Shown: in pieces, positions 16,501 to 21,047 of the stretch
Numbering within the stretch: the stretch's first letter is position 1
How the letters are laid out: every line of letters begins with the position of its first letter
NCBI RefSeq assembly: GCF_001644575.1
Contig: NZ_CP015596.1
Location: forward strand, 3,224,001 to 3,288,000
DNA: 64,000 bases
DNA from: Mycobacterium adipatum
Lineage (GTDB): Bacteria; Actinomycetota; Actinomycetes; Mycobacteriales; Mycobacteriaceae
Direction of reading: 5' to 3'
Made by a program: the position numbers and the translations under genes
The notes under the pieces: model-generated
Databases searched by the model: none
Told to the model about the DNA's origin: nothing
The model's input: the letters and a program-made list of their open reading frames with translations, nothing else

Positions 16501-18096
16501 TCAGTGGCCGGCGACGATATCCGACTCGTCGACCACCACCGGGTCCTTGGCACCGGGTAACAGCGAGTAGGCCAGGCAGATCGCGGCGAAGAACAGATAG
16601 CCCAGCGCGACCGCGGGATTGGCCGCCCACGAGACCTCTGGAGCGTGGATCAATCCGATGAAGGTCAGCACGGCGCCGACCGTCGCGGCGATCGCGGCGA
16701 AGCGGAACTTCTTCTCCAGGATGAAGGTCACCATGGTCCCGAGGATCAGGCCGACGAGCACCGCGCCCTCACCGAGGGTCTTCAGCCCCTCGTAGACCAC
16801 ACCCGCTCCGTTGAGGGCCTCCATGCCGACCTCCGACGCAGATGTGCCGGCCGCACTGAGGGCATTGTCGATCTGGGTCTTGGCCCACTCGGCGAGGTTG
16901 GGCAACAGGGCGGCCACCACGGCGATGGCATGCAGTCGCGGGACCGCCTGGAAGGCCTGGGCGCCGATGAGCAGACCGATATACAGCAGGATCGGCACGA
17001 TCGCCGGCACCGGCAGCAGCGCGTCCAAGATGCCGAACAGGCCGACGAAACAGAAGATTCCGATCATCAGTCCGCTGGCCAGCGAGTAGCTCGCCCGGCC
17101 GCCGGCGTCCTTCCAGCCGGGGTGACCGATGTACACCGCGGGCGGGAACGGTGACCCGAACGCCGATCCGATGACCGCACCCGCGCCGTCGGCCAACAGC
17201 ACGCTGCGCAGGTTGTAGTTGTCACCGGCGGCCGCCGCGCTCTCGACATTGCTCATCGCCTCGGTGAAGTTGTACACACCCAATGGAATTGCGGTGCCCA
17301 ACAAGGGCGCCAGATTCGCCAGCCCGGAGAACAGCAGGTCCAGTCGAAGGTCGGGGATGCCGACGGCGATATCGGAGAACGCCTGCCCGACATCGGGTGC
17401 CGACATGTACCCGCCGACCCAGCCAATGGCGGTGCCGACCAGCAGTGCCGCCAATCCGACCGGGATGCCGAACGGCAGCTTCATATCGGTGAAGAACCCG
17501 ATCAGGATGATCGCGAGCACCGGCAGCCCGATCCAGGCCGCCTCCCACATCTGTGCCGCGGGGCGCATCGAGATGAAGGTGATCGAGATGCCGGCCAGGG
17601 TGCCGAGCATCGCCGCCCGCGGGGTCAGCTTGCGGATGAACGGACCGACGAAGGCGCCGATCATCACGATGACACCGATCATGAACGCCCAGGCCAGTCC
17701 TGCCGACCAGGCCCGGGTCGGGTCATCGGTGCTCAGATACACCGGCAACATGACAACGAAGACCACGATGAACATGTGCGGGACCGACGGGCCGTACGGC
17801 AGCGCCGTGACATCGGACCTGTTCTCCCGCTTGGCAAGTCGTCGTGCCAGGAAGGTGTAGTACAGGTTGCCCAGGATCAGTGCGACACCGAGCGCGGGAA
17901 GGACCGTGCCCAGCACGTCACCGGCCGGGACGGCGATGACGCCGATCATCAGCCCGGTCAGGGTGAGGACGTTGACCAGGATGTTGAAGCCCAGGCCGAA
18001 GAAGGCATTGGTGTCGCCGCGGGTCCACCACGCCACCGTGGGCGCCGGTGCGGCGGGGGAGGGTTCGACGGGGGGATCGGTGATCTCGGTGCTCAT
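16501..18096 (-). CDS. NCS2-family (nucleobase/ureide) permease
   Basis: A 531-residue transporter with about 12-14 membrane segments. FGLGFNILVNVLTLTGL opens the first helix, RSDVTALPYGPSVPH matches the conserved first half of the NCS2/AzgA fold, and GSAFGSPFPPAVYIGHPGWK lies where substrate helix 8 is expected. The family moves xanthine, uracil, adenine or related compounds with H+. It is the last gene of a gntR-atzF-biuH operon, with 12 bases to the upstream stop. The context suggests import of biuret or another ureide. The substrate is inferred from neighbours only. Confidence 0.82.
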   Translation of the reverse strand: MSTEITDPPVEPSPAAPAPTVAWWTRGDTNAFFGLGFNILVNVLTLTGLMIGVIAVPAGDVLGTVLPALGVALILGNLYYTFLARRLAKRENRSDVTALPYGPSVPHMFIVVFVVMLPVYLSTDDPTRAWSAGLAWAFMIGVIVMIGAFVGPFIRKLTPRAAMLGTLAGISITFISMRPAAQMWEAAWIGLPVLAIILIGFFTDMKLPFGIPVGLAALLVGTAIGWVGGYMSAPDVGQAFSDIAVGIPDLRLDLLFSGLANLAPLLGTAIPLGVYNFTEAMSNVESAAAAGDNYNLRSVLLADGAGAVIGSAFGSPFPPAVYIGHPGWKDAGGRASYSLASGLMIGIFCFVGLFGILDALLPVPAIVPILLYIGLLIGAQAFQAVPRLHAIAVVAALLPNLAEWAKTQIDNALSAAGTSASEVGMEALNGAGVVYEGLKTLGEGAVLVGLILGTMVTFILEKKFRFAAIAATVGAVLTFIGLIHAPEVSWAANPAVALGYLFFAAICLAYSLLPGAKDPVVVDESDIVAGH

Positions 18097-18108
18097 CGGG
18101 AGGTCCTT

Positions 18109-18798
18109 TCAGGCGGCGGACAGCGCGAGGGTGTGGAGCGCGGGAATGACGGCGGTGCTGTCGGCGACCCAGCCGAAGATGCCCCCCTGGGCCTTGATCA
18201 TGTCCAGCCCCACCCGCTGGAATTCCGGGAAATACGAACCCACGCAGTCGGATACCACCAGGCACTCGTAACCGCGATCGTTGGCCTCACGGGTGGTGGT
18301 GTGTACGCACACCTCGGTGGTGACACCGGTGACGAGCAATTGGGTGACGCCGGCGGCGGTGAGAACGTCCTGTAGCTCGGTGGCGTAGAAGGCGCCCTTG
18401 CCCGGCTTGTCGATCACCACTTCACCTTCGACAGGGCTGAGTTCGTCGACGATGTCATGGCCGTACTCGCCGCGAATGAGGATGCGACCGTACTTTCCGG
18501 GATCGCCGATGCGTCGCGACGGGGCGCCGCGGTTCAGCTTGGCCGGCGGACAGTCCGACAGATCCGGAAGATGGCCCTCCCTGGTGTGGATCACCAGGAT
18601 TCCCGCGTCACGGGCCGCCGCGATCAATGCTGCCAACGGCGGCACGACCTTGAGCAGTTGCCCGACATCATTGCCCAGGCTCTCGCCGAACCCGCCGGGC
18701 AGCAGGAAGTCCCGTTGCATGTCGATGACGATCAGCGCGGTCTGACCGGGGATCAGTGGGAATGCCGAGGGCTCGGCGGACACCGTGATGGGACTCAT
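18109..18798 (-). CDS. biuH: Cysteine hydrolase, probable biuret amidohydrolase (BiuH-like)
   Basis: A 229-residue isochorismatase-fold cysteine hydrolase. The catalytic triad is visible as Asp26 (IDMQ), Lys131 (DKPGKG) and Cys164 (TTEVCVHTT). The Lys-to-Cys spacing of 33 equals that of Rhizobium biuret hydrolase. [26 protein letters not shown] and [13 protein letters not shown] also match that enzyme closely. BiuH removes ammonia from biuret to give allophanate, and the next gene upstream in the operon is an allophanate hydrolase. Its ATG overlaps that gene's stop by four bases, implying translational coupling. Ureidoacrylate or other ureide hydrolysis is the main alternative. Confidence 0.75.
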
Positions 18799-20195
18799 AC
18801 CTGCTCCTTGTGACGTGTGGTGGACGGTGGCTGCGCGACGGTGCGGGGTTCGTCGAGGAGGTGCGCGGCCAGCGCCAGCGCGGTGTCATCGGAGCCGGCG
18901 TTGCCCAGCAGCATGGCGCTGTGCGGGCGGCCGTCGGTGGTGGTGCCCACCGGCACCGCGATGCCGAGCAGGTCGAGCAGGTTTCCGAAGTGGGTGTAGT
19001 GCCCGAGCACGGTGTTGGCCTCGATCGGGCGGGCCAGCACCTGCTCCACCGTGAAGGTGGTGCCGATGGTGGGCAGCACAAGCACATCCATCGTCTGCCA
19101 CACCCTGGCGACGTGCGCCTTCAGTTCGGCCAAGCGCTGCAGCGCGGCGAACGCATCGACGGCGGTGTAGTCCAGCCCGCCGCGGAAGATGTCACGCACC
19201 ACCGGGTGGATCGAATCGGGATGGCTGGCAAGGAAATCCCCGAACTCGACCAGACGCTCGGCCACCCACGGCCCCTGGTAGAGCAGTTCCCCCGCGGCCA
19301 GGAACGGCTCCAGTGACACCTCGACCACGCTCACCTGCCGGCTGAGCTGCTCGCGGAAGCTCAGGTGCGCCGCCCGCATCGCGTCATCGCCGAAGAACTC
19401 CAGATCGTCCACCGGTGGCAGGCCGACCCGGATCGGGTGACCGTCGTGGCGCGCGCCGCGGGCCCGCGACCACGGATCGTCGTCGTCGCGACCGGCCATC
19501 ACGTCGAAGACGGTGTCGATATCGGCGATGCAGCCGGCCATCAGGCTGATGCAGTCCAGGGATTTACAGGCCGGAACCAGGCCGACGGTGCTGATCACCC
19601 CACGCGATGGTTTGAACCCGACCACACCGTTGAGGGCGGCGGGCACCCGCCCGGAGCCCGCGGTATCGGTCGCGACGGCGAACGGAACCTGTCCGAGTGC
19701 CACCGCCAATGCCGAACCCGAACTGGAACCCCCGGAGATCATTTCGCCGCCGTACACGCTGCGCGGCACCGTGTACGGGGTCCGTGTGCCGTTGAGCCCG
19801 GTGGCGAACTGGTCCAGATTCGTCTTGCCGACATAGAGTGCGCCAGCGTCGAGTAGCCGCTGCACCGCCGGCGCGGTGCGCTCGGCGACATAGGAGTAGT
19901 CCGGGCACGACAGCGTGGTGGGCACCCCGGCGACATCGATGCTGTCCTTCACCCCGAACGGCACGCCGTACAACGGCAGCATGCGGGCCCCGGGGCGGCT
20001 CTCGATGTCCGCCGCGGCGGCGAGCAGGTCCTCCCGCGCGACGGTGGACAGCCAGGTCCCGTCATCGCCTCGGGCGGCGATGGCATCGGCCACCCGTGCG
20101 GCGGTCTTACTCGGTGAACCGGTCCCGCCGGCGTGTGAGGCGAGGATCTCCGCCACCGATGGTCCGATGGACGGGCCGTGCACTTCGAAACCCAT
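18795..20195 (-). CDS. atzF: Allophanate hydrolase (AtzF-type amidase)
   Basis: A 466-residue amidase-signature enzyme with the Ser-cisSer-Lys triad Lys83 (GVKDS), Ser157 (GGSSSGS) and Ser181 (DTAGSGRVP). The triad spacing matches Atz[23 protein letters not shown] is the allophanate hydrolase version of the family (shown across 194-215). It should split allophanate into ammonia and CO2. AtzF and urea amidolyase carry an extra C-terminal domain of about 130 residues that is missing here. The ATG at 20195 has no clear Shine-Dalgarno, so an upstream TTG or GTG is possible. The stop overlaps the start of biuH. Confidence 0.8.
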
Positions 20196-20203
20196 GAAGG
20201 AAA

Positions 20204-20213
20204 TTGTCGACAA
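20204..20213. promoter_or_regulatory. Palindrome TTGTCGACAA before the allophanate hydrolase
   Basis: A perfect ten-base palindrome lies nine bases upstream of the chosen atzF ATG and 38 bases after the gntR stop. FCD-subgroup GntR proteins bind short sites of the TTGTnnACAA kind. It may be an operator for the adjacent regulator. If so, atzF-biuH-permease has its own promoter. Confidence 0.45.
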
Positions 20214-20251
20214 AATGATGGCGTTCACGGAACGCCCATGTGTCGATCGTG

Positions 20252-20923
20252 TTAGCGATTGGGCGGCAGATTCAGGTACTGCAGATGTCCGTGATCGGCC
20301 AGCGCGGCGATCACGGTGCCCGAGTCGTTGCTCTCCAATGCGGTGAGGATTGCCAAGTGCCGGTCGATGCCGTCGCTGGACCGGTGGTGCCGGGCCTCCT
20401 CGCGCAGGTTCATCGCCATCGGGAGCTGCAGCTTGAGCAGGATCGGTTCCAGCGCGATGTCGAGTTGGCGTTGGCCCGCCAGTCCGACCACAGCGGCATG
20501 GAACCGGCGATGCGCATCGTCGCGCTCCAGGTCGTCGGTGGCACTGCTCATTTCCTCCAGCACCCGACGCACCGGTTGCAGGGCCGTCCGGGGGTCGGCC
20601 AACGGCAGTGCGGTTTCGATGGCATGGCGTTCCAGCACGTGTCGCAGCGCGAACAACTGCAGGATCTCGTCCGGCGACCACTCGGCCACCCGTGATCCGC
20701 GCCGTGGGAGCCGCTCGACGAGCCCTTGCTGGGTCAGCAGTCGTAATGCCTCCCGCAGCGGCGCCCGGCCGATGCCCAAATCGGCGCACAGCTGTTCTTC
20801 GACGAGTTTCTCGCCGGGCCCCAGTGCGCCGCTGAGAATGGCGGCGCGCAGTCGGCTGCCGGCCACGTCGACGAGCGTCGCGGGCGACCCGTGCCGGGAT
20901 CCGTCCATTCTGGGTGCCGCCAT
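20252..20923 (-). CDS. GntR-family (FCD) transcriptional regulator
   Basis: A 223-residue regulator with an N-terminal winged helix (LRAAILSGALGPGEKLVEEQ, LGIGRAPLREALRLL) and an all-helical FCD effector domain. His97-type DDAHRRFHAAVVGL and the later HHRSSDGIDRHLAIL and ADHGHLQYL segments give the metal-binding His pattern of FCD proteins. It lies directly upstream of the allophanate/biuret hydrolase genes on the same strand and is the obvious candidate local regulator. The inducer might be biuret or allophanate; this is inferred from context. Confidence 0.9.
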   Translation of the reverse strand: MAAPRMDGSRHGSPATLVDVAGSRLRAAILSGALGPGEKLVEEQLCADLGIGRAPLREALRLLTQQGLVERLPRRGSRVAEWSPDEILQLFALRHVLERHAIETALPLADPRTALQPVRRVLEEMSSATDDLERDDAHRRFHAAVVGLAGQRQLDIALEPILLKLQLPMAMNLREEARHHRSSDGIDRHLAILTALESNDSGTVIAALADHGHLQYLNLPPNR

Positions 20924-21033
20924 GGCCGGTTCGGTGCCCCCTCATACCGGCGTGTACCGGCTCAGTGGCCATCGTAGGAAGTTCGGTGGTGTGCTGTCGT
21001 GTCGGCCCACCGGCGGCGACTCGACAGCACGGG

Positions 21034-21047
21034 TAGAACGTGTTCTA
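21034..21047 (+). promoter_or_regulatory. KstR-type box TAGAACGTGTTCTA
   Basis: A perfect six-base inverted repeat TAGAAC-GT-GTTCTA, nine bases before the ATG of the thioesterase gene. It fits TnnAACnnGTTnnA, the operator of KstR, the TetR repressor of mycobacterial sterol degradation. It is the most symmetric of the four sites in this window. Confidence 0.8.

Follow-up and report, generated by a model that had tools for sequence, protein, structure and literature searches.

A putative triuret operon with a TrtA-type hydrolase and a candidate importer in Mycobacterium adipatum

Organization of the operon and its regulator

The window, i.e., the whole 64,000-nucleotide stretch analyzed here, comes from a genome of 6.05 Mb and has a GC content of 0.678. 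On its minus strand, positions 16501–20923 hold four tightly packed open reading frames in the order GntR regulator, amidase, isochorismatase-like hydrolase, and permease. A gap of 56 bases separates the GntR and amidase genes and one of 12 bases the hydrolase and permease genes, while amidase and hydrolase overlap by 4 bases. The features at the locus are:

20971..20976, minus strand: possible -10 hexamer TACGAT upstream of GntR
20252..20923, minus strand: GntR/FCD regulator P0001 (PF00392, 62.5 bits; PF07729, 49.6 bits; both over cut-off)
18795..20195, minus strand: single-domain allophanate-hydrolase-like amidase P0002 of the 'type A' clade (NF006043, PF01425, tree)
18109..18798, minus strand: TrtA-type triuret hydrolase P0003 (6xix match, TrtA residues at specificity positions)
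16501..18096, minus strand: permease P0004 with the SLC4/23/26 fold, candidate triuret importer

The start of P0002 was set at 20195 because close relatives are likewise 466 aa long. GntR and FCD, Amidase, and Isochorismatase domains of the operon proteins all scored over their Pfam cut-offs; Rfam and tRNA scans of the whole window gave no matches. The same gene order was also found in relatives, so the four-gene grouping is not a product of chance. The compact operon proposed by a first-pass annotation is thus borne out, its frames lying where they had been placed, and protein families and gene order likewise back the proposal of a ureide-nitrogen operon with a dedicated regulator and permease.

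The predicted GntR regulator carries both the GntR HTH and the FCD domain, and the protein may sense triuret or one of its products. An operator search across 16 aligned GntR upstream regions (the window and 15 loci, three of the latter from one genome) found no shared palindrome. The clearest conserved columns are those of the TACGAT hexamer, a putative promoter element. Directly upstream of a divergent thioesterase-like gene, a palindrome, TAGAAC-N2-GTTCTA, lies at 21034–21047; we take it to resemble the mycobacterial KstR operator.

The operon hydrolase is of the TrtA type

Among PDB sequences, P0003 matched 6xix with 280 bits and 6xj4 with 275 bits, both TrtA entries according to the accessible part of the triuret hydrolase paper (PMC7948467), and the biuret hydrolases 6xjm and 6azo with 235 and 213 bits, respectively. 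Its identity to TrtA 6xix is 61% over 208 positions, compared with 50–53% to two BiuH chains. The catalytic triad is complete (D26, K131, and C164, equivalent to TrtA D24, K129, and C162), and the TrtA substrate residues F29, E72, K132, and Q202 (TrtA numbering) are all retained.

The same paper, in its accessible part, picks six positions distinguishing TrtA from BiuH, and P0003 carries the TrtA residue at all six. Five of these are F37, N43, E162, Y189, and I207, corresponding to TrtA positions 35, 41, 160, 187, and 205. Across 181 aligned sequences, F, N, E, Y, and I occupied these positions in 123/123 TrtA-like rows; the BiuH pattern Y, Y, D, T, and V, which P0003 does not show, occurred in 50 of the 54 non-TrtA-like rows, the other four deviating. 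The sixth position, A134, is matched by P0003 but did not separate the groups in our alignment.

These residues bear on the possibility of a biuret operon, in which the permease would import biuret and P0003, as a biuret hydrolase, would pass its product to the amidase. P0003 does reach 258 bits with the BiuH equivalog model NF050097, and a generalist biuret/triuret enzyme is described for the TrtA-less Rhodococcus sp. Mel in the accessible part of PMC7948467. The cut-off of that model is 370 bits, however, and the Rhodococcus generalist has BiuH residues at the five positions where P0003 resembles TrtA. We consider a biuret operon highly improbable. Judged by its sequence, P0003 is a TrtA-type hydrolase and not BiuH: PDB relatives, the missed BiuH cut-off, and the specificity residues all contradict the earlier 'BiuH-like' label. 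The catalytic residues reported for this hydrolase are indeed present, in an enzyme of TrtA type and not a biuret hydrolase. By homology to the characterized TrtA, P0003 would convert triuret to carboxybiuret and ammonia.

The amidase resembles allophanate hydrolases

P0002 passed the allophanate hydrolase subfamily model NF006043 (526 bits, cut-off 487) and missed the equivalog TIGR02713 (493 bits, cut-off 511). A Pfam search of P0002 detected the Amidase domain (PF01425) only, with no AH_C domain; a C-terminal tail of more than 100 residues was seen in 8 of the 48 type A amidase rows. The Ser-cisSer-Lys residues K83, S157, and S181 show spacings of 74 and 24. S157, S181, Y306, and R314 are present in 104/104 aligned amidase rows, and K83 in 103, the remaining row having a gap. 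Y306 and R314 presumably have a carboxylate-binding role. The allophanate hydrolase assignment of the first-pass annotation therefore stands as to the subfamily model and the conserved residues, and falls short as to the equivalog and AH_C.

All 48 type A amidases combine S or T at position 85 with A or S at position 175, as do L069 and L073. This combination was considered as a mark of BiuH loss and dropped, eight BiuH-less amidases of another order having N85/G175. In that order, TrtA, permease, and amidase are found as a set in nine BiuH-less genomes, and the amidase looks ordinary at both positions in eight of them; thus, no sequence feature binds the amidase to the step that BiuH would perform.

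Conversion of (carboxy)biuret to allophanate

In Herbaspirillum sp. BH-1 and Rhizobium leguminosarum 3841, the triuret pathway comprises TrtA, BiuH, and AtzF, with TrtB co-occurring (PMC7948467, accessible part). The system described here resembles it in combining a TrtA with matching specificity residues and an allophanate-hydrolase-like amidase in one operon. It differs in three respects: no BiuH was found (the whole genome gave no further relative of P0003 at E ≤ 1e-30), a whole-genome search found no AtzH-like gene, and the operon holds a P0004-family permease, which the accessible part of PMC7948467 does not mention. The best AtzE-like amidase elsewhere in the genome reached 282 bits, below the cut-off of 426. 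One further locus of the genome holds an ordinary allophanate hydrolase, which may share the last step of the pathway:

L168 (G000:C1:4725000-4742000): ordinary allophanate hydrolase, 635 bits, with AH_C, beside a biotin-dependent carboxylase and two DUF1989 genes

This set of carboxylase, two DUF1989 genes, and full-length allophanate hydrolase resembles published guanidine degradation.

BiuH was found in the same stretch for 0/48 type A amidases versus 34/53 other amidases, some of these stretches extending only about 1.5 kb on each side of the match. Anywhere in the genome, it was present in 2 of 12 type A genomes versus 16 of 20 other TrtA genomes of the order sample. Wider counts of the type A lineage, with TrtA taken as the mark of a lineage member (in G019, identical to L016 by coordinates, the contig stops before the amidase), gave BiuH elsewhere in 6/22 and 5/29 genomes, one of the latter with an internal stop; the two sets have at least three genomes in common. 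The 29 genomes derive from 48 of the best 80 loci (of at least 577), chosen as BiuH-less in the stretch, with L023 and others excluded.

The overlap of an amidase gene with trtA points to formation of allophanate, either by P0002 or by an unlinked enzyme. With modest confidence, we favor P0002 as the probable catalyst of the (carboxy)biuret to allophanate step; confidence is only modest because other BiuH-less operons have ordinary-looking amidases. TrzF, an allophanate hydrolase, reportedly hydrolyses biuret, to go by the title of Shapir 2006, and on this title alone is set beside P0002 as a precedent for a single amidase that takes both biuret and allophanate. Carboxybiuret is deaminated by the related amidase AtzE (PMC6219798, accessible part). 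P0002 is akin to AtzE and AtzF of the cyanuric acid pathway of Pseudomonas sp. ADP treated there, but unlike AtzE it scores as AtzF-like and lies far under the AtzE cut-off. We offer only tentatively a BiuH- and TrtB-free pathway of two hydrolases, in which a Pfam-less permease would supply TrtA with triuret, TrtA would yield carboxybiuret, and P0002 would carry (carboxy)biuret through allophanate to ammonia.

Alternatively, within a triuret operon, P0002 could act on allophanate only, and (carboxy)biuret could be left to an enzyme encoded elsewhere or to a secondary activity of TrtA, or could be lost as biuret, in which case few of the four nitrogens of triuret would be gained. The ordinary-looking amidases of the eight BiuH-less genomes fit this, as do the other AtzE-like amidases in the genome, even though the best is below cut-off, and several GntR–TrtA–permease loci with no amidase within the stretch examined. 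Such an amidase would nevertheless be of little use in the operon unless triuret yields allophanate, and the TrtA proteins of type A loci have no change at a specificity position that would hint at a new biuret activity. An allophanate-only P0002 seems to us somewhat unlikely. We also considered whether type A TrtA has moved towards biuret and rejected the idea: the three positions at which it departs from other TrtA include no published specificity position.

The permease follows TrtA

P0004 matches the UraA/UapA fold; UapA and UraA, carriers of purines and uracil, are among the proteins related to it by fold. None of the 28 members of its family had a meaningful Pfam match, and P0004 had no sequence match in the PDB. 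The family profile matched the E. coli adenine carrier AdeP weakly (E 0.0011, probability 21) and gave nothing useful against E. coli UraA, DauA, or the unrelated TnaB. The 'NCS2' label given earlier is supported by fold class, alongside the weak AdeP match; P0004 is like the NCS2 carriers UapA, UraA, and AdeP in fold and differs in having no Pfam or PDB sequence match and in its genomic association with TrtA. Named homologues at 95–96% identity belong to Mycobacterium and Mycolicibacterium, including M. frederiksbergense.

The permease distribution closely mirrors that of TrtA. In an order sample of 248 genomes, TrtA (called at 59% identity or more) occurred in 32, and the permease family in the same 32, plus pieces in G179. 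In a class sample of 296 genomes, 30 have TrtA; 29 of these, and no other genome, have the permease. Combining the two overlapping samples, the permease is present in 54/55 TrtA genomes, and in 52 of them no more than 279 bases lie between the two genes; these counts carry no correction for kinship, so the Fisher values computed from them are descriptive. The permease is missing from all 13 actinobacterial genomes whose sole relative is a more distant one, mostly BiuH-like (G377, at 58% and 249 bits, and G263 and G281, both at 42%, are doubtful as BiuH), which also argues against the biuret operon.

Similar pairing was found more widely. The permease adjoins TrtA in 75 of the best 80 named TrtA loci (of at least 577), including Verrucomicrobiota, Chloroflexi, and Bradyrhizobium records. 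A contig edge cuts short one of the five permease-less loci. In the order of Actinomadura rayongensis, it is present at 21/24 TrtA loci and 0/6 BiuH stretches, a comparison of loci only that covers all 24 TrtA loci and 4 of 10 BiuH-only genomes.

Among 60 genomes of the same genus, TrtA occurred in 20, all with the permease (two frames in G009). The 40 genomes lacking TrtA yielded one permease remnant, in G014, and a BiuH-like gene in five. In 7 of the 20 TrtA genomes the two genes are separate, on different draft contigs in five and about 0.9–1.0 Mb apart on one contig in G004 and G009, with TrtA in another kind of cluster. In six of these seven genomes the permease is by itself near counterparts of the window's TPR, thioesterase, and EthD-like genes, with GntR, amidase, and TrtA missing there; pairwise dN/dS among these six copies is 0.03–0.08. 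Both cluster kinds have TrtA and different downstream enzymes, which makes the substrate of TrtA the simplest common factor. The permease may thus be tied to that substrate, as its distribution indicates, and the seven separated cases may share one ancestry.

A different possibility is that the permease takes up a purine or urate-like compound and that triuret is formed inside the cell from urate oxidation. The fold relatives UapA and UraA and the weak AdeP match are compatible with it, and urate oxidation has been proposed as a triuret source (PMC7948467, accessible part). Against this, the permease tracks the triuret hydrolase gene even when separated from it, and we regard purine import as quite unlikely. 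P0004 may instead be a triuret importer; as for the biuret importer suggested before, both the hydrolase specificity residues and the permease distribution favor triuret.

TrtA in other genetic settings

Plasmids show that the pairing is not universal. Of 269 plasmid records matching P0003, 121 are from Rhizobium, a name absent from the ten commonest among the 150 records matching the permease; Rhizobium plasmids thus seem to carry a TrtA-type hydrolase without it. In nitrifiers, TrtA is paired with an ABC nucleoside transporter (PMC12625717, accessible part). Together, these cases indicate that a P0004-type permease is not the sole solution. Permease homologues at 36–40% identity on marine bacterial plasmids may have other substrates.

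Enterobacterial plasmids (78 Escherichia among the 269 records) carry a TrtA-like gene of 62% identity that is annotated as cysteine hydrolase. Roughly 1 kb downstream of it lies fdrA, and a relative of the permease, at 37% identity, is located some 18 kb away:

NZ_CP019909.1, 21300-24449 and 42368-43879: enterobacterial plasmid example

A second kind of TrtA cluster was observed at L172 (8140–13123), where TrtA is accompanied by FdrA/AllF, AllG, and a carbamate-kinase-like domain and AH_C in one frame, and also at L077, L080, L170, L210, L211, L220, L232, L234, L235, and L236, with AllH present in L210 and L211. Stretches of this kind contained neither BiuH nor amidase. This gene content suggests triuret breakdown via a transcarbamylase and carbamate kinase. 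Comammox clusters have allFGHK beside triuret genes (PMC12625717, accessible part).

Conclusions

Together, our results favor, with a probability of roughly 55%, a triuret nitrogen-scavenging operon, in which P0004 would import triuret for hydrolysis by P0003. This assignment derives from sequence comparison and gene distribution. BiuH distribution is reportedly the subject of Robinson 2018 and Aukema 2020, where such permease neighbours may be discussed. The literature searched, with subscription journals largely outside its scope, described no triuret or biuret importer, and the accessible parts of PMC12625717, PMC9800807, PMC13390362, and PMC5806882 name no importer of the P0004 family. What is added here is a triuret pathway variant that includes a candidate transporter. 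For the BiuH-less genomes, the question becomes which enzyme leads from the product of TrtA on to allophanate. With a permease that accompanies TrtA even at a distance, triuret uptake becomes directly testable, and the permease may serve as a marker for triuret users.
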